Under the pieces are notes generated by a model. That model saw only the letters and a program-made list of their open reading frames with translations, was not told the DNA's origin and did no database searches. This document shows positions 9,946 to 27,577 of a stretch of 63,757 bases of DNA, piece after piece (the stretch's first letter is position 1; every line of letters begins with the position of its first letter). Both the position numbers and the translations under genes were made by a program. This DNA comes from Candidatus Pollutiaquabacter sp. (lineage in GTDB: Bacteria > Bacteroidota > Bacteroidia > AKYH767-A > 2013-40CM-41-45), in contig CANIAS010000008.1 in NCBI GenBank assembly GCA_947465495.1, forward strand, positions 1-63,757, read 5' to 3'.

Positions 9946-11061
9946 ATGTCAAACACCTTGAAAATTCAGCCTTCCAATACTTGGTGGGATCCTAGCGGTC
10001 AGCCGTTGTTGATTGCAGGTCCTTGTGGTGTGGAATCTCCGGAACAGGTGCTCTCGGTGGCTGGCGACCTATCTGCATTAGGCATTAAGTACTTGCGCGG
10101 AGGTATTTGGAAACCCCGCACACGACCAGATTCCTTTCAAGGTATTGGTGAAGTTGGACTGTCATGGCTAAGCGATGCAGGTCATGCTCATGGTATGCAG
10201 GTAATGACAGAAGTGGCGGATCCCGATCACCTCGAAGCTGCGCTGAAAGCTGGTATCGACATGGTTTGGATAGGTGCACGGACTGTCGTCAATCCATTTC
10301 AAGTTCAACGTATTGCCGATGCTCTAAAAGGTGTCTCGATACCAGTATTGGTCAAAAATCCTATTGCGCCTGATCTTGAATTGTGGATAGGTGCTCTTGA
10401 GCGGATGAACCGTTCTGGAATAGATCGGTTAGCAGCTATTCATCGCGGTTTCACTGCGTATGAAAGGTCTCATTACAGAAACGCTCCGAACTGGCAAATT
10501 CCCATTGAGTTGAAGCGAAGGTTCCCGGAATTGACCTTGTTCTGTGATCCTAGCCATATTGCCGGTAAAACCTCTATGATAGCTCCAGTCGCTCAAACGG
10601 CATTGGATCTTGGTTACGAAGGTTTGATGGTGGAGGTTCATCCTAATCCTTTGAAGGCACTTAGTGATAGCGAGCAGCAATTAACTCCCGCAGCGTTTGA
10701 AGAATTTATTGGCGAATTGGTGGTTCGTAGCAAGTCTATGATGGATGCCATTTCGCGGTCTCACCTTGCTGAAATGAGAAGTCGAATAGATGAGTTCGAT
10801 CAGTTGCTGCTGGATGTCGTAGCGAAACGTATGGAGTTGTCACGTGAAATCGGAACCTTGAAGAAGGAGCAAAATGTAACCATCTATCAACTGGATAGGT
10901 GGAATGAGATTCTGCGCACACGTACCCAATACGATGCTGCATCAGGATTGACCTTGAACAAGGATTTTATCATAAAATTTTTTGAATTGATTCACGAGGA
11001 GTCGATACATCAACAGACGCAAGTCATGAACAGTCGCGACTTACCCGGAGAGAACGTCTGA
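9946..11061 (+). CDS. Bifunctional DAHP synthase / chorismate mutase
   Basis: The 371-residue product fuses a 3-deoxy-D-arabino-heptulosonate 7-phosphate synthase (about 1-265) to a C-terminal AroQ-type chorismate mutase (about 270-355). The synthase part has IAGPCGVESPEQ, LRGGIWKPRTRPDSFQG, VMTEV and CDPSHIAGK; the mutase part starts at MRSRIDEFDQLLLDVVAKRMEL. It covers the first shikimate step and the branch step toward phenylalanine and tyrosine; feedback control by aromatic compounds is typical of such fusions but is not visible here. It starts the aromatic run: aroB follows after 8 bp and aroA after a further 9 bp. Confidence 0.94.
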   Translation: MSNTLKIQPSNTWWDPSGQPLLIAGPCGVESPEQVLSVAGDLSALGIKYLRGGIWKPRTRPDSFQGIGEVGLSWLSDAGHAHGMQVMTEVADPDHLEAALKAGIDMVWIGARTVVNPFQVQRIADALKGVSIPVLVKNPIAPDLELWIGALERMNRSGIDRLAAIHRGFTAYERSHYRNAPNWQIPIELKRRFPELTLFCDPSHIAGKTSMIAPVAQTALDLGYEGLMVEVHPNPLKALSDSEQQLTPAAFEEFIGELVVRSKSMMDAISRSHLAEMRSRIDEFDQLLLDVVAKRMELSREIGTLKKEQNVTIYQLDRWNEILRTRTQYDAASGLTLNKDFIIKFFELIHEESIHQQTQVMNSRDLPGENV

Positions 11062-11069
11062 TCTATGCC

Positions 11070-12149
11070 ATGAATATCATCGAACTAAAGTCGGAAACCT
11101 ATTCGGTACATATCGCAGCAGGGGCTTCCACGTTGTTACAATCCTATATTCAATCTCGTCCAGCTACTTCAAGAAGTTTCATCTTGGTCGATTCGAATAC
11201 TGGTAAACATTGCCTTCCCAGGTTGGTTGCTGCTGTACCGGCATTGTCGAATGTAACCGTCATTACGTTGCAAGCGGGAGAAGCTAATAAGCATCTGGCC
11301 TCTGTAGAGGGTGTCATTGGTGTTCTCCTTTCCCAAGGAGCTGATCGCCATTCTTTATTGGTGAATCTTGGCGGAGGATTGATTACTGATTTAGGTGGAT
11401 TGTCTGCCTCCTTGTTCATGCGAGGTATTGATTTTGTGAATTTGCCTACATCTTTGCTTGGAATGGTTGATGCTGCTGTTGGTGGCAAGACGGGCGTGAA
11501 TTTCAGTGGTAATAAAAATAGTATCGGCCTTTTCTCTAATCCGAGTAAGGTTATCGTTGATTTGAATTACTTGGAGTCATTACCTGAGCGAGAGTTTCGT
11601 TCCGGTGTGTCTGAGGTAATCAAGCATCAACTGATTTCTGGTGAAATAGGGAAAACCAATTGGCAAGCTGTTCCTTGGTCGCAGTTCGATTGGGCAACGC
11701 TGATTGCTCAGAGTATCGCTTTTAAACAAAATGTGGTCGCGTCTGATTTTCAAGATCACCATCTTCGTAAAATATTAAATTTCGGACATACTGTTGGCCA
11801 TGCTCTGGAAACGTATTCATTGACCACTGGCTTGTCTCCGCTACTTCATGGCGAAGCAGTAGCCTTAGGTATGCAATTGGAGCTAGTCTTGTCGCATCAT
11901 CTGACTGAACTCGACGAAAAATTATTAAAGGATTATCTCCGCTTGATCCAAGGTGTTTTTCCGGAACTTTCATTCAATATGTTCGATCACTCTTGGATGA
12001 ATCACCTTCAAACAGATAAAAAAAATCAGGATCGTGAAATACGATGTGTTTTGCTTGAAGGTTTAGGTAAAGTGCGTGTGGATGTTCCCATAGCAGAAGC
12101 GGATATTCATAAAGCACTTCAATACCTTGTAGTTAACAGCATCAACTGA
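11070..12149 (+). CDS. aroB: 3-dehydroquinate synthase
   Basis: AroB converts DAHP to 3-dehydroquinate using NAD and a divalent metal. The 359-residue sequence shows LVNLGGGLITDLGG, NLPTSLLGMVDAAVGGKTGVNF (active-site Lys), and metal-binding HGEAVALGM and FGHTVGHALE. Length is normal. It sits in the three-gene aromatic operon, 8 bp after the DAHP synthase fusion, supplying the second shikimate-pathway step. The remaining pathway enzymes (dehydroquinase, shikimate dehydrogenase, shikimate kinase, chorismate synthase) are not in this window. Confidence 0.95.
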   Translation: MNIIELKSETYSVHIAAGASTLLQSYIQSRPATSRSFILVDSNTGKHCLPRLVAAVPALSNVTVITLQAGEANKHLASVEGVIGVLLSQGADRHSLLVNLGGGLITDLGGLSASLFMRGIDFVNLPTSLLGMVDAAVGGKTGVNFSGNKNSIGLFSNPSKVIVDLNYLESLPEREFRSGVSEVIKHQLISGEIGKTNWQAVPWSQFDWATLIAQSIAFKQNVVASDFQDHHLRKILNFGHTVGHALETYSLTTGLSPLLHGEAVALGMQLELVLSHHLTELDEKLLKDYLRLIQGVFPELSFNMFDHSWMNHLQTDKKNQDREIRCVLLEGLGKVRVDVPIAEADIHKALQYLVVNSIN

Positions 12150-12158
12150 TCAAAGCAG

Positions 12159-13361
12159 ATGGATTCACGGGAACAGTCGCTCGCTGTTAAAATCAGTCTT
12201 CCGTCATCGAAAAGTATATCGAACCGATTGTTGTTACTTCGGAAAGTGAGTGGCGTTTCTTTTTCCATCCATGGAATTTCTGAAGCCGATGATACCGTTC
12301 GGATGAATGAACTGCTGGAAAATCTTTCACCGGTAGTGAATGCAATGGATGGCGGCACCACCTTGCGTTTTCTACTGCCTTTCTTATGCATGTTGCCAGG
12401 CGAATTCCTGCTTACGGGAACAGAGCGAATGCAGGAGCGTCCTATCAAAGAGCTGGTTGATGCTTTGGTATCACTTGGAGCAGATATTCGCTACGTTGAA
12501 AAATCAGGATACCCACCGTTGCTGATTACTGGTGGTTCGCTTCATGGTGGAGATGTGTTTATTGACCCTTCTCGCAGTAGTCAATTTGTAAGTGCTTTAC
12601 TCTTGGTAGCGCCGTTTCTCAAAGGTGGACTTCGGCTACGACTTTCAATGCATCCGGTTTCCGCAACCTATATCGAGATGACGCTTAAGACGCTGAGTTA
12701 TTTCTCCATAGCTTATCAGCAGTCCTCCGATACCATTGATATTCTCCCCCAAACAATTGCTCCTCGGGATATTACGGTCGAAGCCGATTGGAGCGCCGCT
12801 GCTTTTTGGTTTCAGTTAGCGGCTCTATTGCCAGGACGTACATTTATACTCAAGGATCTGTGCGAAAGTGGATGGCAAGGAGATCAAGCAGCCCTTTGTC
12901 ATTTTGAAAAAATGGGTGTCAAGGCGATTCGTTCGGAGGAAGGTATTTCAATTTGTTCTGATGGCGCTCCATCTCATGGGAAAGAGTGGTATTTTGATCT
13001 TAATCATACGCCAGACTTAGCGCCTGCTATCATCTTAACCGTTGTGGGGCTTCGAAGCAAAGCGATATTTAAAGGACTTGAGCATTTGAGGTATAAAGAA
13101 AGTGACCGGGTGGAAATAATAGCAGGGTATATTCGATCTTGCGGTGTAACGATGGTGCACGAAGATGACGTTTGGAAATTAGATGCTACAAATGCTATTC
13201 GTTCGAAGTTGGTCATTGATCCTCATAATGATCATCGATTGGCGATGTCTTTTGCAATGTTGTCAGTAGCGGGTTGGCCTGTATCTGTGATTCACCCCAC
13301 GGTCGTTAGTAAATCATATCCGAATTTCTGGGATGAAGTAGGTAAGGTGCAAGCTTTGTAA
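12159..13361 (+). CDS. aroA: 3-phosphoshikimate 1-carboxyvinyltransferase (EPSP synthase)
   Basis: AroA joins phosphoenolpyruvate to shikimate 3-phosphate. The 400-residue protein has the PEP/shikimate site SSKSISNRLLLL near the N-terminus, MDGGTTLRFLLPF, RPIKELVDALVSLGADI, YKESDRVE, and DPHNDHRLAMSFAM. It is slightly shorter than the 427-residue E. coli enzyme, as Bacteroidetes forms often are. It is the last gene of the aromatic operon, and its stop lies 4 nt from the stop of the convergent barrel gene with no room for a terminator between them. Confidence 0.94.
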   Translation: MDSREQSLAVKISLPSSKSISNRLLLLRKVSGVSFSIHGISEADDTVRMNELLENLSPVVNAMDGGTTLRFLLPFLCMLPGEFLLTGTERMQERPIKELVDALVSLGADIRYVEKSGYPPLLITGGSLHGGDVFIDPSRSSQFVSALLLVAPFLKGGLRLRLSMHPVSATYIEMTLKTLSYFSIAYQQSSDTIDILPQTIAPRDITVEADWSAAAFWFQLAALLPGRTFILKDLCESGWQGDQAALCHFEKMGVKAIRSEEGISICSDGAPSHGKEWYFDLNHTPDLAPAIILTVVGLRSKAIFKGLEHLRYKESDRVEIIAGYIRSCGVTMVHEDDVWKLDATNAIRSKLVIDPHNDHRLAMSFAMLSVAGWPVSVIHPTVVSKSYPNFWDEVGKVQAL

Positions 13362-13365
13362 TGTA

Positions 13366-15372
13366 TCATAGTTGCCAACGAAGTTGTAGGGCTAAATCTC
13401 GCCTAACATTCCCCGTGGTTTGTGATAGTTCATCGGTAAACAGACGATCAACTACTGTTGTATTTCCAATTCGTATCCATCCGTCCAGATTTCGAAGTAA
13501 TGCTATATGGACAAGTAAGTAATATCTTGTTCCTTGTCCATAATAGGCGCTCGTTGCATACGTTAGTGGCAAATCACTTTCCTGGGCATAAATGGCGGTT
13601 TCGTAGCTTTCTGAATGGAAAACTGCTAATCTGAAAGTAAACGAAATTGGGTACTTGTTAGATTGATAGTGAATGTCCTGAAAAGCCATGCTGGCAGTCG
13701 GACTTATTACATTGCCACCATGCGTCCATTTAAATTCTACTCGGTATTTGACCTGCCATCCGAAGGACGGCTGTATGGTCAGTTGATACCGAGCTTGACT
13801 AACTATGTAATCATCAATTTCAGGTATAACATCCCTAGTAATATTGTTTTCTACAGTAGATTTAGTTCGATAGGATAAATATGTTTCGATTTTCTTACCA
13901 ATATTGCATGTCAGTTTGATTCCTTGAATACATCCTCGTTGCGGTGAATCTATGCCATATTGCAGCCATGAAATGTGAAAACGGTCTGCATAGGCATTCA
14001 GTTGGAAGGATGGTGTGATTCTAAAATTAATTCCCGCATAAAGTGACTGCATGCCGTTTTGCGACAGGCCGAAAGGTGAATTGTAGTTGGATGAGTAATT
14101 TTTATTACTCACCCTGTGATTTAGACCTACTGAAATGCGTTTGTCAGGGTTTATCAAAATTCCATTTACAGCGGAAAGGTGCAAGCCATTGATAAATGCG
14201 CATTCTCCAAAAAGTAAGAAACGATCTGTAGCAAATTGGTAGTTTAATTCGCCGACTAGATTTCGTAAAGTCGTGGGATTATCCATTTCATTAAGTAAGT
14301 CAGCTGGTGGCGAAGGATATTTTTCGTTGCAGCTAGCTAAAAGTACACCCACGGTTGTATTAGCGTTCCTATAGGAAATGGATCCGCCAAAACATGTTCG
14401 AGCTGAAGTGTTAATACGGGTTTGTTCTAAATCGGTTCGATGAAGCCCGCTTAGGTCTTCTTTGAAATAACATACGGAGGAATCTGCTGACCATTGTTTG
14501 CTACCATCTAAGCGTGTATGTGAACTGAATACGAGTGCCTGCAATTTTGAGAACTGCATGGTAAGAGCTCCTCCGCGTAGGTAGCCACTTTCCGCCATGG
14601 AAGAAAAAGGGTAGGCCCCGAATCCATTACGCTTCAGGGTAATTAAATCGTTCGAAACTCCTCCAATGGAGGACCGCCCGTATACTAGTCCTTGGCCGAT
14701 TTGCAAACGATAATCACCAACTATCAATCGGAATGGATGCTCGGATGGTTTCCATTGAATGAAATAACCGATGTGATCAGGCCCCGTTTTGTTCCACCAA
14801 GATTCTCCAGCATCCTTTTCTGCATTGATTCCTAGTTTTAGACAATCGTCTATTCTTATTCTTGCTCTGAATGCTGCTTTCCAGGGGTCAAATGCTTCTG
14901 AAAAAGCAGTTGGAGTTGCTGCATTCAATTGGATTTTTCTGACTGACTGTGTGATTTCAGTATGTATATCATTTTTGTCTGACAAGGTGTTTGGAATGTT
15001 TGCGCGAAAGGGATCTGGAAATAAAATATATCCGCTCAAACATTCGATTTCTTGTTTAGTAAAGCCTGAAATGACTTGCAACTCCTCCTTGCAAAGTAAT
15101 TCACCACATTCTTCGATATGTCTATAAATAGCAGCCAATTTTAGTGGGTCGGTACATGGAAGTGATTCTAAAAAAGAAATGGTTGTTTCATTCCACTTCT
15201 TCCGTTGTTTGCTTGATTCGTCCAGGTCATTAAGCGAACTTTCAATATCTCCATTTGAATTTTCCGTCTCAAGGAATTCAGCCTGTCGCTCGAGGGCATC
15301 GGTATCCGGTGTTTGCCCAAATGAGACTTGTTGCAGTATAAGAATAGCTGCCATTATCTGAATCTTTCTCAT
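13366..15372 (-). CDS. Predicted outer-membrane barrel protein with N-terminal helix-hairpin-helix-like region
   Basis: This 668-residue protein starts with a signal peptide ending near FGQ (residue 20). Residues about 45-120 are helical and contain segments like ETTISFLESLP and LQVISGFTKQEIECLSGYI that resemble the paired helix-hairpin-helix units of ComEA-like proteins. The rest, from about 165 to the end, is aromatic-rich alternating sequence (for example IVGDYRLQIGQGLVYG) ending LALQLRWQL, as expected of an outer-membrane beta barrel. Proteins with this architecture are common in Bacteroidetes but I know of no proven function. Its ATG overlaps the upstream stop by 4 nt (ATGA), so it is translationally coupled to the PorV-like gene. 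DNA binding is conjecture. Confidence 0.75.
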   Translation of the reverse strand: MRKIQIMAAILILQQVSFGQTPDTDALERQAEFLETENSNGDIESSLNDLDESSKQRKKWNETTISFLESLPCTDPLKLAAIYRHIEECGELLCKEELQVISGFTKQEIECLSGYILFPDPFRANIPNTLSDKNDIHTEITQSVRKIQLNAATPTAFSEAFDPWKAAFRARIRIDDCLKLGINAEKDAGESWWNKTGPDHIGYFIQWKPSEHPFRLIVGDYRLQIGQGLVYGRSSIGGVSNDLITLKRNGFGAYPFSSMAESGYLRGGALTMQFSKLQALVFSSHTRLDGSKQWSADSSVCYFKEDLSGLHRTDLEQTRINTSARTCFGGSISYRNANTTVGVLLASCNEKYPSPPADLLNEMDNPTTLRNLVGELNYQFATDRFLLFGECAFINGLHLSAVNGILINPDKRISVGLNHRVSNKNYSSNYNSPFGLSQNGMQSLYAGINFRITPSFQLNAYADRFHISWLQYGIDSPQRGCIQGIKLTCNIGKKIETYLSYRTKSTVENNITRDVIPEIDDYIVSQARYQLTIQPSFGWQVKYRVEFKWTHGGNVISPTASMAFQDIHYQSNKYPISFTFRLAVFHSESYETAIYAQESDLPLTYATSAYYGQGTRYYLLVHIALLRNLDGWIRIGNTTVVDRLFTDELSQTTGNVRRDLALQLRWQL

Positions 15373-16190
15373 GGAGTGTGTGCGTTGTTGTTAAACAAAT
15401 ACGTCAAAGCAATTCCGGTTGAGAAACCTAAATAGGGGTGTTGTTCCACGGAGGCGTCAATGGTCCATTTATCATAAGTAATTCCGATGCCTCCTGAAAT
15501 CTGTTTTCCAATACTAGCGTATCCAAATCTGCATTTTGCATGAGGTATTGGTGCATATTCTAATCCGATGCAGAAGGAACTTGCGTCCCATAGTTGATGG
15601 AATTCACACAGAAGTTGAAATATTTCGTTTGGTCGGAAGTTAATGCCGGCATGAATTGAAGGTCCATTCTGCGGAACTAATTTGTTAGTATTTAGAATTA
15701 CCTGTGCGTCATCTAGAGATAGTCCCGCTATCAGGTTCGTTGTTAAACGTGACATAAATCCTAGACTTGTGCTGAATGTTGTACGGTTATCCGCTATAGT
15801 ATAATCGTTAGCTCGACGGATCACGGAGGTGCGAAGACCAAGCCCGGACCTCTTACCAACTTTTAGGCTTATAGCAATCGGACATTGAAAGTCCCGTATT
15901 CCAGCGAATCCTTCCATGCGGATTCCTGTTCCGAACCTAACTTGATTTTTCACAGGCGCACAGAACGACATCGCAACATCGTTCCAGTTTCCAATGCGGT
16001 AGTGATTGCGTTGTAAAATTGAAACGAGGGTTGATTCAGTCTGGCTTAATCCTGCCGGATTGACGAACGTTGACCACGCATCACCGCTTGTGGTGCCAAT
16101 CATTCCCATGGACTGTGATCGTATGCTTTGCGCATCGATCCGGAGGATTGTTAGAACTCCTACTAGAAGAAGGATCGCTTGTAGCTTCAT
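15369..16190 (-). CDS. PorV/FadL-like small outer-membrane protein
   Basis: A 273-residue exported protein: signal peptide with hydrophobic core ILLLVGVLTIL ending near DAQS, then MGMIGTTSGDAWSTFVNPAGLS, the N-terminal signature of PorV/PorQ/FadL-type barrels. Alternating hydrophobic strands continue to a C-terminal ALTYLF. PorV-type proteins are outer-membrane barrels, some of which act as T9SS shuttle components. This one is shorter than true PorV, so I call only the fold. It is directly followed, with a 4-nt overlap, by the large barrel gene, suggesting a joint role at the outer membrane. Confidence 0.75.
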   Translation of the reverse strand: MKLQAILLLVGVLTILRIDAQSIRSQSMGMIGTTSGDAWSTFVNPAGLSQTESTLVSILQRNHYRIGNWNDVAMSFCAPVKNQVRFGTGIRMEGFAGIRDFQCPIAISLKVGKRSGLGLRTSVIRRANDYTIADNRTTFSTSLGFMSRLTTNLIAGLSLDDAQVILNTNKLVPQNGPSIHAGINFRPNEIFQLLCEFHQLWDASSFCIGLEYAPIPHAKCRFGYASIGKQISGGIGITYDKWTIDASVEQHPYLGFSTGIALTYLFNNNAHTP

Positions 16191-16337: not shown

Positions 16338-16829
16338 TTATTGAGCTAACCCTTTGTTAGCATCAATGACTTTTTCCTTCAAGTTATTTTTGAATTCTTC
16401 AATCTTTTTGAAAAGGGAGTTGTCGGAAGTTGCAATTATTTGTGCAGCCAGTATTCCTGCATTTTGTGCAGCATTTAAAGCCACAGTCGCAACGGGTACT
16501 CCGTTGGGCATTTGAAGTATGGAAAGGATGGAGTCCCATCCGTCAATAGAATTGCTGGAGCGCACTGGTACACCAATTACGGGTAAGGAGGTCATCGATG
16601 CAGTCATTCCTGGCAAGTGTGCTGCGCCGCCGGCCCCTGCGATAATTACTTTAATGCCACGTCCTGCAGCAGAACGTGCGTATTCCATCATCCATTCTGG
16701 CGTACGGTGCGCTGAAACGATTTGTACTTCGTGTGGCACGTTGAAACTGATGAGAATTTCAGCAGCAGCTTTCATCACATCCATATCGGATGAACTTCCC
16801 ATGATAATACCTACGAGTGGCTTCGACAT
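16338..16829 (-). CDS. purE: 5-(carboxyamino)imidazole ribonucleotide mutase
   Basis: PurE class I moves the carboxylate of N5-CAIR to C4 in purine synthesis. The 163-residue protein has the family signature IIMGSSSDMDVMKAA at the N-terminus, SAHRTPEWM with the catalytic His, and IIAGAGGAAHLPGM. It lies 25 nt after purK on the same strand, so the two consecutive steps are co-transcribed. The 147-bp gap downstream, before the barrel-pair promoter, contains only a 10-bp palindrome near 16303 and no strong terminator. Confidence 0.96.
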   Translation of the reverse strand: MSKPLVGIIMGSSSDMDVMKAAAEILISFNVPHEVQIVSAHRTPEWMMEYARSAAGRGIKVIIAGAGGAAHLPGMTASMTSLPVIGVPVRSSNSIDGWDSILSILQMPNGVPVATVALNAAQNAGILAAQIIATSDNSLFKKIEEFKNNLKEKVIDANKGLAQ

Positions 16830-22765: not shown

Positions 22766-25700
22766 ATGGTCAAATTAAACGATCAGTTTTTTATCATCGG
22801 ACGTGGAGCTCTCAGATGGATAAGCGCTGTCATTTTGATAGTACTCTGTAACAACGACCGTTTGGTTGCATCGCATGCAATGGGAGCAGATTTAACCTAC
22901 ACGTGCCTGGGTGGAAATCAGTACGAGGTAACCTATTCGTTCTATCGGTATTGCGATGGTATTCCAGCACCAAGTACATTTACTGTGAATGTGGTAGCGC
23001 CGGGATGCTCCAATGCCAACTTGAATGTTATTTTAAATTGTACCAATTTTAATAATCCTACTGAAATTTCTCCAGTATGCCCGACAGCCACTTCGAATTG
23101 CAACGGAGGTACGTTCATAGGTGTTCAAGAGTATATTTATACGGGTATCATCACTTTACCTGCTGCTTGTGCCAATTGGACATTAAGCGTTTCGGAATGT
23201 TGCCGTAATTCCACCATTACTACCGTAGCCAATCCTTCTGGCTATAATTTGTTTTTGTATTCAACGTTGAATAACACTTCGGGTATTTGTAATAATTCGC
23301 CTACGTTTGCCAACAATCCTGTTCCATTCGCTTGTACTGGTCAGCGTTTCTGTTTCAATCATGGAGCCTTCGATGTTGATGGCGATTCACTGGTGTATCA
23401 GTTAATTACTCCTCGCTCAGGTCCAGCTGCTGCTGATACTGTATCCTACGTTGCTGGATACTCAGCTAGTCAGCCAGTCCTTTCTCAACCTGGCAATCCT
23501 GCGGTTCAGGTTCGCTTTGATCCGGTGACGGGTGACATGTGTATGGATCCTATACAAGCTGACAATACCGTCTTTGCGGTGTTGGTGAGTGAATATCGTA
23601 ATGGTGTATTGATCGGTCAAGTTGAACGCGACATTCAGTTGAGCGTTTTGGCTTGTAGTAATCGATTGCCACTCTTATCTGGTATCAATGGATTGCCAAG
23701 TCCTCAGCCTTACACCATCAACGCATGCGCTGGCTCAGTTGTTAATTTCTTCATTGCTTCTATTGATCCAGATCCTACTAATTCTACTTACCTGAATTGG
23801 GACTATGCAATTCCTGGTGCAACTTTTACCACCTACGGTGGGTCGAATCCTTTTGGTGGACATCGTGATAGTGCTCGTTTTACGTGGATTCCAACTGTTG
23901 GAGATATTGGTCATTCCAACTGCTTCACGGTGTCGGCCTCTGATGATAATTGCCCAATCCTAGGAACTACGTATTCGTCGTATTGTATCAATGTTATAGG
24001 TGTAGATGTGGACGCAGGTGCGGATGTTTCTGTTTCTTGCGGACAATGTACTTCGTTGACAGCAACGCCAGTGGGAGGGACCGGACCGTATACTTATACT
24101 TGGAATCCTGGTAATGTTCAATCAGCCACATTGAGCCCCGCTTGCGTGGGACAGTACATTGTTAGTATTCGGGACAACAGTACCTGTACGAATACTGATA
24201 CTATTAATGTTATTCCATCAGCAGGCAGTATCGCGGCAGCATTTAATGCTACTAGCAATTGCAGCGGTGCGCCGGTGCAATTCACCGATCAGTCATCAGG
24301 AGGTGCAGTCAATAGCTGGTCTTGGACGTTTGGTGATGGTGGAACATCCAACCTTCAGAATCCTACTCACCAGTATGCTTCAAACGGAAATTATAATGTA
24401 ACACTTATTATTACTGCTGCTGGTGGCTGCATCGATACTGTCGTGCAGCAGATTACCATAGCTACCAATATTCCTGTTGCTCAAATTGCTGCTACAAATG
24501 TATGTCAGGGTACTACCATGAATTTTTCAAGTAACGCAAGTACCGGAGGTCCTATTGCTACGTATGCATGGGATTTTGGAGACCCTGGTTCGGGCGCATC
24601 CAATACGGATGCCACGGCTAATCCAAGCCATTATTTCATTACTCCAGGGACATATACTGTTACACTCGACATCACCAACACGGCAGGTTGCTCGGATAAT
24701 CAACAACAGACAGTTACGGTCTATGCCAATCCAACTTGTTCAGTTCCTCCGCAGCAGATTTGCGCGGGGCAACAAGCCGTATTGTCTGCCCCTGCTGGAT
24801 TTAGTAGTTATGCATGGAGCAATGGTGGGAATTCACAAACCATAAGCGTGAGTCCTGCAAATACTGCGACCTATACCATAACCGTAACGGATGCTAATAA
24901 TTGTTCAGTTACCTCAAATACCCAGGTGAACGTTAATCCTGTTCCTGTGGCAAACGCCGGAACCAATCAGACTATTTGTGCCGGTACATCAACCAACCTT
25001 ACCGCTAGCGGTGGTTCTGCAGGAAGCGTTTATACCTGGAGTCCTGGATCGCTTGGTGGAGCTACAGTTACAGTGACACCAGCAATTACTACTCGTTATA
25101 CTGTTGAAGTAACGTCAGGAGCAGGATGTTCTTCAACGGCATCTGTAACTGTTGATGTGAATCCTATGCCTCAAGTTTCAGCAGATAACGATGCAGCCAT
25201 TTGTAAGGGTACATCAATTATTATTAATGCAAATTCTGGAACAGCGAATTATTCCTGGCAGCCCGGCAGTTTAACCGGTGCGAATATTGCAGTTACACCT
25301 TTGGTTACAACTACCTATACGGTTACTGTCAGTGATGCTATTGGTTGTTCGGGTAGTGATCAGATTACGATTACTGTAAATCCATTGCCAGCAGCAGCAT
25401 TTAGTTCAGACGCTCCGCAATGTGAAGGTTTTTCTGTCTCATTTTCGGATGCATCCTCTGTTCCAACGGGATCTGTTTCTGCTTGGTCTTGGGATTTTGC
25501 CAATGGCCAAACCTCTCAAACTCAAAACCCAGCTTCACAATATTCCAACTCGGGTAATTACAACGTTCGTCTCATTGTAACCTCCGACGGAGGCTGCAAG
25601 GATACCATTGAAAATGCGATAATCATTAACGCAACTCCCGTAGTTGATGCAGGAGTAAGTCAAGATATTTGTCCGGGAGGAAGTGCTAGTCTGACGGCCT

Positions 25701-27577
25701 CCGGTGGAAGTCAGTATTCTTGGAGTCCGGGTGGATTCTCGTCTGCGACAATAAACGTTAGTCCTGCTGTTACTACAGATTATACCGTTACAGTAACGGA
25801 TGCCAATGGATGTATCAATTCGGATGCTGCACGTATTGCAGTTCAACCTGTGCCCGTGGCAAATGCGGGAACGGATCAATCCATTTGTTATGGCGAGTCA
25901 ACCAGTCTGGTTGCTTCCGGTGGTGATACCTACCTTTGGTCGCCAGGTAACGTTGCCACTGCAGTTGTGAACATTACACCATCAGCAACCGCGACTTATA
26001 CCGTCATTGCTCAAAATACATTCGGTTGCCGCGATACGGATGATGTTCAAGTGAGAGTTAATCCTTTGCCCATAGCTTCCTTTGCTCAAACAGGTCCGGT
26101 ATGTCAGTCTATTCCGGTTTCATTTACCGACCAATCGTCCGTGGGAACGGGCACTATCAGTGCTTGGAACTGGGATCTTGGTAATAATATTATTAGCACC
26201 AACCAGGACCCTCAACTTTTATATTCATCACCTGGTAATTATACGGTGAGGTTGATAGTAACTACGTCTGATGGATGTAGAGATACGGTGAGCGAACCAT
26301 TATCTATTTATGCGGAACCAGTTGCCGAATTTACCTCCGTGGATGTTTGTGATGGATTGCCGGTTCAGTTTACGGATGTGTCTACCATTTCCGACGCTAC
26401 TCCGCTCTCGTATTCATGGGATCTTGGAGACAATTCCATGGCCTACAGCCAATCATTTTCGCATACTTATGGTACCTATGGTACCTACCCGGTTACATTG
26501 GTGGTTGCCTCAAACCGTAACTGCCGTGATTCGATAAGCCGTTTAGCCAATGTCTTCGCGCTTCCTGATGCGGCATTTGTCACTGACTTTACTTGTACTG
26601 ACGAGCCAGCTGATTTTATGGACCAGTCTGTCATTCCACAAGGACTCATCAGTAATTGGTTTTGGCAATTTGGAGATGGTTCCGTTGAGTCGGTTCCTAA
26701 TCCTCAGCACATTTATAATGTACCAGGGTATTACGACATTGACCTATTAGTTACGAGTGATCATGGATGTCTGGATAGTACCAACGGATTAATTCGGGTA
26801 GTGCCGCTGCCTATGGCTGATTTCGAAACGCAGGATGTATGTTTTGGGTTAGAATCCCCACTAAGTGATTTATCCTCATCGCCTACAGGTAGTATTGTGT
26901 CTTATTCCTGGAATTTTGGGGACGGTCGCACCTCTACCGATCAGAATAATTTGCACCAATATGCTGCTCCTGGATTTTATCAAGTTTCTTTGACGGTAAC
27001 AACTGATAGTGGATGTGTCAATACCTTAGTTCGTCCAAATGCGCTTCAAGTATATGCTCCGCCACCGGCTAGCTTTTTAGATAACGCCGTCTTGGCAAGT
27101 GATATTTATCCAATTGTCAATTTCACCAATCAGACTGGTACGCTGGGTACATATTCCTGGGACTTTGGAGATGGTGCTCTCTCAACGGAATATTCGCCTA
27201 CGCATGAGTATGCTTCCATAGGCATTTACGAAGTCCAGATGATTGCCATTGATTTAAATGGTTGCGTAGACACCTTGCTCAGAAGCATCGAAATTAGACC
27301 TACGTCAAATGTATACATTCCCAATTCTTTTACCCCTAATGGTGATTTGAAGAATGACTTATTCCAGGTTTATACGTATAATGTGGTATCTGTGAATAGT
27401 CAGATTTTTGATCGTTGGGGCTTGGAGATATTTACCTGGGATGGTGTATCTGGTGGATGGGATGGAACAATAGAGGGTCAACCAGTTCAAAATGATGTTT
27501 ATGTTTACAGAATAGTAACTACAGACGTTAATAATAAACGTGAAGTTCACGTCGGACACGTTTCGCTGGTTCGATGA
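22766..27577 (+). CDS. Giant secreted PKD-repeat protein with CHU_C sorting domain
   Basis: This 1603-residue protein has an N-terminal membrane segment (about 15-35) acting as signal peptide, then a conserved Bacteroidetes module beginning ASHAMGADLTYTCLGGNQY. From about residue 410 come many PKD and Ig-like units: PKD copies show WSWTFGDGG or YSWNFGDGR cores, and the Ig-like copies repeat ICAGTSTNLTASGG/YTWSPGS. The last 90 residues (VYIPNSFTPNGDLKNDLF, FDRWG, GWDGTIEGQPVQNDVYVY) are the gliding-motility-associated CHU_C domain, a type B T9SS signal. It is probably a surface adhesin or matrix protein. The 214-bp AT-rich upstream gap contains TTTG at 22714 and a near -7 box TATTTTTC at 22733, a weak promoter candidate. 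Confidence 0.9.
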   Translation: MVKLNDQFFIIGRGALRWISAVILIVLCNNDRLVASHAMGADLTYTCLGGNQYEVTYSFYRYCDGIPAPSTFTVNVVAPGCSNANLNVILNCTNFNNPTEISPVCPTATSNCNGGTFIGVQEYIYTGIITLPAACANWTLSVSECCRNSTITTVANPSGYNLFLYSTLNNTSGICNNSPTFANNPVPFACTGQRFCFNHGAFDVDGDSLVYQLITPRSGPAAADTVSYVAGYSASQPVLSQPGNPAVQVRFDPVTGDMCMDPIQADNTVFAVLVSEYRNGVLIGQVERDIQLSVLACSNRLPLLSGINGLPSPQPYTINACAGSVVNFFIASIDPDPTNSTYLNWDYAIPGATFTTYGGSNPFGGHRDSARFTWIPTVGDIGHSNCFTVSASDDNCPILGTTYSSYCINVIGVDVDAGADVSVSCGQCTSLTATPVGGTGPYTYTWNPGNVQSATLSPACVGQYIVSIRDNSTCTNTDTINVIPSAGSIAAAFNATSNCSGAPVQFTDQSSGGAVNSWSWTFGDGGTSNLQNPTHQYASNGNYNVTLIITAAGGCIDTVVQQITIATNIPVAQIAATNVCQGTTMNFSSNASTGGPIATYAWDFGDPGSGASNTDATANPSHYFITPGTYTVTLDITNTAGCSDNQQQTVTVYANPTCSVPPQQICAGQQAVLSAPAGFSSYAWSNGGNSQTISVSPANTATYTITVTDANNCSVTSNTQVNVNPVPVANAGTNQTICAGTSTNLTASGGSAGSVYTWSPGSLGGATVTVTPAITTRYTVEVTSGAGCSSTASVTVDVNPMPQVSADNDAAICKGTSIIINANSGTANYSWQPGSLTGANIAVTPLVTTTYTVTVSDAIGCSGSDQITITVNPLPAAAFSSDAPQCEGFSVSFSDASSVPTGSVSAWSWDFANGQTSQTQNPASQYSNSGNYNVRLIVTSDGGCKDTIENAIIINATPVVDAGVSQDICPGGSASLTASGGSQYSWSPGGFSSATINVSPAVTTDYTVTVTDANGCINSDAARIAVQPVPVANAGTDQSICYGESTSLVASGGDTYLWSPGNVATAVVNITPSATATYTVIAQNTFGCRDTDDVQVRVNPLPIASFAQTGPVCQSIPVSFTDQSSVGTGTISAWNWDLGNNIISTNQDPQLLYSSPGNYTVRLIVTTSDGCRDTVSEPLSIYAEPVAEFTSVDVCDGLPVQFTDVSTISDATPLSYSWDLGDNSMAYSQSFSHTYGTYGTYPVTLVVASNRNCRDSISRLANVFALPDAAFVTDFTCTDEPADFMDQSVIPQGLISNWFWQFGDGSVESVPNPQHIYNVPGYYDIDLLVTSDHGCLDSTNGLIRVVPLPMADFETQDVCFGLESPLSDLSSSPTGSIVSYSWNFGDGRTSTDQNNLHQYAAPGFYQVSLTVTTDSGCVNTLVRPNALQVYAPPPASFLDNAVLASDIYPIVNFTNQTGTLGTYSWDFGDGALSTEYSPTHEYASIGIYEVQMIAIDLNGCVDTLLRSIEIRPTSNVYIPNSFTPNGDLKNDLFQVYTYNVVSVNSQIFDRWGLEIFTWDGVSGGWDGTIEGQPVQNDVYVYRIVTTDVNNKREVHVGHVSLVR

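Follow-up and report, generated by a model that had tools for sequence, protein, structure and literature searches.

Two exported proteins encoded by overlapping genes raise the question of what an outer membrane does with a barrel that carries a domain resembling a DNA-binding protein. The genes lie in a 63,757-nucleotide stretch of DNA from Candidatus Pollutiaquabacter sp., a member of the Bacteroidota (henceforth the window). A first-pass annotation, made from the letters alone, had described them as a PorV-like barrel coupled to a larger barrel with a ComEA-like helix-hairpin-helix (HhH) region, and had left DNA uptake, secretion and protein docking as possible functions.

The gene pair and its predicted folds

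The features on which the analysis is based are the following.

13366..15372, minus strand: open reading frame of a 668-aa predicted outer-membrane protein (the large barrel), with a signal peptide at residues ~1-20, an (HhH)2-like periplasmic region and a ~24-strand barrel
15010..15246, minus strand: ComEA-like (HhH)2 region, residues ~43-121 of the 668-aa protein, assigned from HHH_3 matches in homologues, the family profile against 8dss and predicted helices
13369..14967, minus strand: predicted barrel domain, residues ~136-668 of the 668-aa protein, from the DSSP assignment of the AlphaFold model and a structural match to the ushers FimD and PapC
15369..16190, minus strand: open reading frame of a 273-aa predicted PorV/FadL-fold barrel with 14 strands (the partner), from its NF033709 PorV_fam match, its model and Foldseek
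15369..15372, minus strand: ATGA stop/start overlap of the two genes, read in the sequence

Both open reading frames and their overlap were recovered as first described. The stop codon TGA of the PorV-like gene overlaps the ATG of the large-barrel gene, bases 15372-15369 of the minus strand reading ATGA, and both proteins have a signal-peptide-like start without a lipobox cysteine. Scans for promoters and terminators gave signals below background, and a scan of viral contigs retrieved no relatives of the window protein. Upstream of the pair and on the same strand are purE and purK; downstream and in opposite orientation is a shikimate cluster whose last gene is aroA. In this cluster (9946-13361), which stops just before the pair, aroB and aroA come after a gene whose DAHP-synthase-like product has a fused chorismate-mutase-like C-terminus. 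Among 80 loci from named genomes, the recurring neighbours were purE, adk, obgE, aroA and aroB, all of them housekeeping genes, and we dropped them as a functional clue for that reason. The window's purE (16338-16829) has counterparts near the pair in 23 of the 80 loci, L055 among them, and purK has them in 8; the arrangement is old and conserved but has no clear meaning. The genes aroA or aroB are near the large barrel in six to seven other loci. The longest open reading frame of the window, of 1603 aa, is elsewhere (22766-27577, plus strand).

Confident structure predictions support both folds. The AlphaFold model of the 668-aa protein, built with 78 homologues, has a pLDDT of 87.0 and a pTM of 0.85. 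It places helices at residues 43-55, 65-69, 76-89, 95-100 and 106-113, in the order of an (HhH)2 unit, followed by ~24 long strands (counted from the DSSP strand list) that form a barrel of more than 500 residues. The first-pass annotation had expected some 500 residues of barrel, and the model indeed predicts a membrane barrel and not a soluble fold. Attempts to assign the barrel to a specific family by structure failed, as the match lists contain common large-barrel shapes only. Foldseek returned generic large barrels with TM-scores of at most ~0.46 on either length and up to 0.40 on the length of the model. Whole-barrel matches include the 24-strand ushers FimD and PapC (rmsd 3.7-5.6 over 357-376 residues). 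The feature shared with these ushers is the size of the barrel, ~24 strands by structural alignment; unlike them, the large barrel stands in a locus where we saw no chaperone-usher genes, and we found no sequence relation between the two. The barrel is net-basic, with a median of +2.7 per 100 aa vs +0.4 for SusC-like and +1.1 for PorV-like neighbouring proteins, an excess that is weak evidence for the passage of DNA.

A helix-hairpin-helix region of ComEA-like ancestry

The window protein is too divergent to reveal its N-terminal relationship when searched alone. It had no Pfam match and a weak match to TIGR01259 comE (E 0.065), and Pfam, NCBIfam and PDB searches with this single sequence were uninformative; the HhH relation emerged from family profiles only. 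At the family level the resemblance proved real. HHH_3 of Pfam was matched by 21 of 30 large-barrel homologues; outside the class, some members exceed the Pfam cut-off by a wide margin (for L123, 67.9 bits and E 8.3e-19). The family profile matched the ComEA structure 8dss over profile positions 63-124 (E 4.2e-8), as well as ComEA 8dfk and both HhH domains of 9yi2. Together with the (HhH)2 order of the predicted helices, these homologies identify the region as helix-hairpin-helix by descent.

GxG hairpins make the contacts of HhH domains with the DNA backbone; an HhH domain that lacks GxG can serve to dock proteins. In the Bacteroidia copies, GxG occurs in hairpin 1 of none of 78 sequences and in hairpin 2 of a single one. 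The motif survives in ~7 of 37 sequences from two phylum-wide samples, L136 being an example of a lineage that keeps it, and some deep branches of the family have a canonical second hairpin. The first-pass suggestion of a DNA-handling domain on an outer-membrane protein thus stands as to HhH ancestry and domain order, but the hairpins that would contact DNA are lost in nearly all Bacteroidia copies, and for that reason the domain's binding partner may be a protein rather than DNA. It is nonetheless under constraint, since none of the 78 sequences varies at N61, G90 or E97, and Q99 is nearly invariant. We also considered the net charge of the HhH domain (~-3.6) as an argument against DNA binding and gave it little weight, because a slight negative charge is also seen in ComEA domains 8dss and 8dfk (counted from sequence).

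The large barrel therefore resembles ComEA in its exported (HhH)2 domain, its profile matches to 8dss and 8dfk, and a tie to comEC described below. It differs from ComEA in the loss of the GxG hairpins in Bacteroidia and in not being a small soluble or membrane-anchored periplasmic protein, as its HhH domain is fused to a ~24-strand barrel and not to a membrane anchor. Moreover, the window genome (G000) encodes a separate ComEA-like multi-HhH protein on another contig (C26:11931-12542; ~310 aa, three HHH_3 repeats).

Distribution of the pair and comparison with known export systems

Across the class, 57 of 61 relatives have the large barrel, usually in single copy. A profile of 30 members (A1), run against 392 genomes of the phylum, detected it in 326 at E<=0.001. 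A strong match (E < 1e-20, reaching beyond the HhH part; counted from the listed rows) was present in 284. Within the class, a PorV-like gene lies directly upstream in 30 of 30 loci, with a gap of -86 to +135 nt. A clustered PorV-like neighbour was found in 68 of the 80 further loci from named genomes, and in 14/18 and 14/19 loci of two more samples, mostly from more distant genomes. This gene order is conserved far beyond chance. Checking it across the Bacteroidetes had been proposed with the first-pass annotation. The pairing is conserved, but with exceptions: in green sulfur bacteria the large barrel has no adjoining PorV-like gene. From these neighbour counts we regard the large barrel as the core and the PorV-like partner as common but not universal.

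The model of the partner is a 14-strand FadL-type barrel (pLDDT 90.9). Its best Foldseek match was PorV of the type IX secretion system (T9SS; 8gl6_F, TMq 0.77), followed by FadL (TMq ~0.7). It matched NF033709 PorV_fam with 26.8 bits (E 3.5e-6), below the curated cut-off of 90 bits. Among the 30 partner members, 22 matched PorV_fam at E<=0.01 and two matched BamG. The latter raised membership of the BAM complex as a candidate; the partner in the window matches PorV_fam only. Two reports describe SprA-PorV and BamA-BamG, in each of which a FadL-fold protein accompanies a large barrel (PMC12611786, PMC12578637). The pair studied here shares this combination of a large barrel and a PorV/FadL-fold partner with both, whereas by sequence we found nothing that relates the large barrel to either.

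These likenesses suggest a machine for protein export or surface assembly akin to T9SS or BAM, in which the PorV-like protein would act as shuttle or scaffold, proteins would pass through the large barrel, and the HhH region would be a docking module. The loss of GxG would suit such a module, as would the match of four of 30 large-barrel members to T2SSK_1st. Distribution argues against it. SprA was absent from five of five tested genomes of the green sulfur bacteria (family f40, recognized by the FMO protein in the three genomes tested for it) and from genome G296, all of which have the large barrel and ComEC. Conversely, of 12 genomes tested that have neither the large barrel nor ComEC, all 12 carry SprA. 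SprA is thus distributed independently of the large barrel, which sets the pair apart from SprA-PorV, and we rejected the pair as a part of T9SS on these grounds. The purified Bacteroidota BAM complexes, as listed in the available text of the same two reports, include no such protein (PMC12611786, PMC12578637), and no secreted cargo is evident beside the pair. We therefore consider an export machine unlikely.

We also compared the large barrel with PilQ-type secretins, whose role as a wide outer-membrane pore for DNA entry is the one proposed for it below. Unlike a multimeric secretin, the large barrel is predicted to be a single-chain pore, and it had no Pfam match to a secretin domain, PF00263 included. 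PF00263 was not found anywhere in the window genome, nor in the other 12 of the 13 out of 14 tested barrel-bearing Bacteroidia that lacked a detectable copy. Four of six green sulfur genomes had a PF00263 secretin and two were without.

Association with ComEC and a proposed DNA-uptake gate

ComEC is the importer for transformation in characterised systems. Neighbour clustering of the 80 named loci placed a ComEC gene directly 3' of the large barrel in six Sphingobacteriales loci, with a gap of -12 to +9 nt; these include Pedobacter psychrophilus, Pedobacter frigoris, Sphingobacterium paucimobilis and Pelobium manganitolerans. PF03772 and DUF4131 confirmed the identity of the downstream genes. 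One family of the phylum-wide set (that of G180 and G138) has both genes in 37 of 46 sampled genomes, and ComEC directly follows the large barrel in 34 of the 37. This family is probably Sphingobacteriaceae, since the named loci show the same gene arrangement. We saw no such linkage outside this family and the Sphingobacteriales group in the loci examined, and in the window genome ComEC is on another contig (C36). Confined to one family, the linkage may be a single rearrangement.

The presence and absence of the two genes provide a second line of evidence. ComEC was detected in 380 of the 392 genomes. A strong large barrel is absent from 11 of the 12 ComEC-less genomes vs 97 of the 380 ComEC-bearing ones (Fisher p 4e-6, a value that ignores phylogeny). 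Independent cases are few, as nine of the 12 ComEC-less genomes (G225, G265, G273, G304, G316, G328, G336, G429 and G441) belong to a single family, f60. The genes are unlinked in three cases of co-absence: f60, G373 and G428. Within family f46, G373 alone among the sampled genomes was found without ComEC, and it alone was seen without the large barrel. Further co-absences occur in the family with adjacent genes (G475, genus g223 and, in a second sample, G478). A clear ComEA-like multi-HhH protein, as in other genomes, was not found in G225, G373, G428 or G475. One counter-example, the fragmented draft G318 (290 contigs), has the large barrel without detected ComEC. The reverse case, ComEC without the large barrel, was seen in Flavobacteriaceae (f28) and family f27, so another DNA route must exist there. 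The label Flavobacteriaceae is based on ribosomal protein L2 of G264, which is nearly identical to that of 7jil, a Flavobacterium johnsoniae ribosome.

These data bear on a different explanation, in which the large barrel conducts a small molecule or polymer, as a general transporter or diffusion channel of the outer membrane, and its link to comEC is accidental. Such a channel would fit the very wide distribution in the phylum, a barrel that belongs to no sequence family of known function, the generic structural matches to porins and transporters, and the housekeeping neighbours in many genomes (purE, adk and aroA). It would not account for the three unlinked co-absences, for the tight operon with comEC in one family or for the retention of an HhH domain of ComEA-like ancestry, and we consider it quite unlikely. 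The ancestry of that domain and the tie to comEC would fit any traffic of DNA across the envelope, including the release of DNA or the use of extracellular DNA as food. Given that characterised ComEC proteins import DNA for transformation, and that no nuclease gene was noticed among the annotated neighbours of the pair, we regard roles of this kind as very improbable.

The ComEC operon in one family, the co-absence with ComEC, the independence of T9SS and the lack of a secretin in most carriers lean towards DNA uptake among the functions that the first-pass annotation had left side by side. Our preferred reading, to which we assign a rough probability of 0.58, is that the pair is an outer-membrane DNA-uptake gate for natural transformation, with the PorV-like protein as partner of the large barrel. 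Weighing against it are the restriction of the ComEC linkage to one family, the loss of GxG in Bacteroidia, the families that have ComEC but no large barrel, the secretins of some barrel-bearing genomes and the different outer-membrane genes found essential in Riemerella (see below). Fold and domain order, conserved pairing, the ComEC operon, the co-absence, the independence of T9SS and the lack of a secretin are computed results; from them we infer DNA as the cargo, inward transport, a handover to the ComEA-like protein and ComEC, and a supporting role of the partner. In this model the ~24-strand barrel, wide and net-basic, would admit double-stranded DNA. On its periplasmic side the (HhH)2 region would either retain the DNA or provide a docking site for the separate ComEA-like protein and its three HhH repeats, after which transport of one strand through the inner membrane would fall to ComEC. 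By analogy with PorV for SprA and BamG for BamA, the PorV/FadL-like partner may attach laterally to the large barrel and act as its scaffold or gate.

In a more tentative extension, to which we give somewhat less than an even chance, the family would represent a new type of gate: a single-chain ~24-strand barrel that incorporates a domain derived from ComEA and is joined by a PorV-like partner. Across much of the Bacteroidota it would take the place of the pilus secretin; in green sulfur bacteria, where the large barrel is also present, it may share the role with secretins. Most genomes tested have ComEC without a secretin, and the large-barrel family is a concrete candidate for the outer-membrane DNA gate of Bacteroidota, deletable in one step. 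If the reading is correct, genes are transferred without a pilus secretin in a phylum that is dominant in many environments, the gut among them, and the architecture of large barrel plus FadL-fold partner serves a third kind of cargo.

We found no earlier description of the large-barrel protein family. A literature search, with most subscription journals and preprints outside its scope, returned no description of it as a DNA-uptake part and no mutant. Natural transformation is a standard method in the green sulfur bacterium Chlorobaculum tepidum (PMC3842273). A transposon screen in Riemerella anatipestifer identified other outer-membrane genes as essential for transformation and led to the conclusion that this machinery differs from those already known (PMC8459023). 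The Riemerella system (RA0C_RS04915, RA0C_RS04920 and RA0C_RS02645) resembles the one proposed here in combining an outer-membrane part with an HhH protein, both needed for transformation (PMC8459023). It differs in that the description of RA0C_RS04915 includes a carboxypeptidase regulatory-like domain but no HhH, and in that the essential HhH protein, RA0C_RS02645, is separate and predicted to be periplasmic (PMC8459023). RA0C_RS02645 is in this respect like the three-HHH_3 ComEA-like protein of the window genome.

Two minor observations concern the genomes at the edges of this distribution. Family f60, with no detectable ComEC or large barrel in nine genomes, has SprA in six of six members tested and is perhaps a clade that lost transformation. 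In two 2 Mb genomes of genus g228 (G459:C154 and G479:C5), the large-barrel match is weak and in pieces (E ~1e-36), one piece with a stop, and adjoins a ComEC of ordinary score; their large-barrel gene may be decaying or very divergent.
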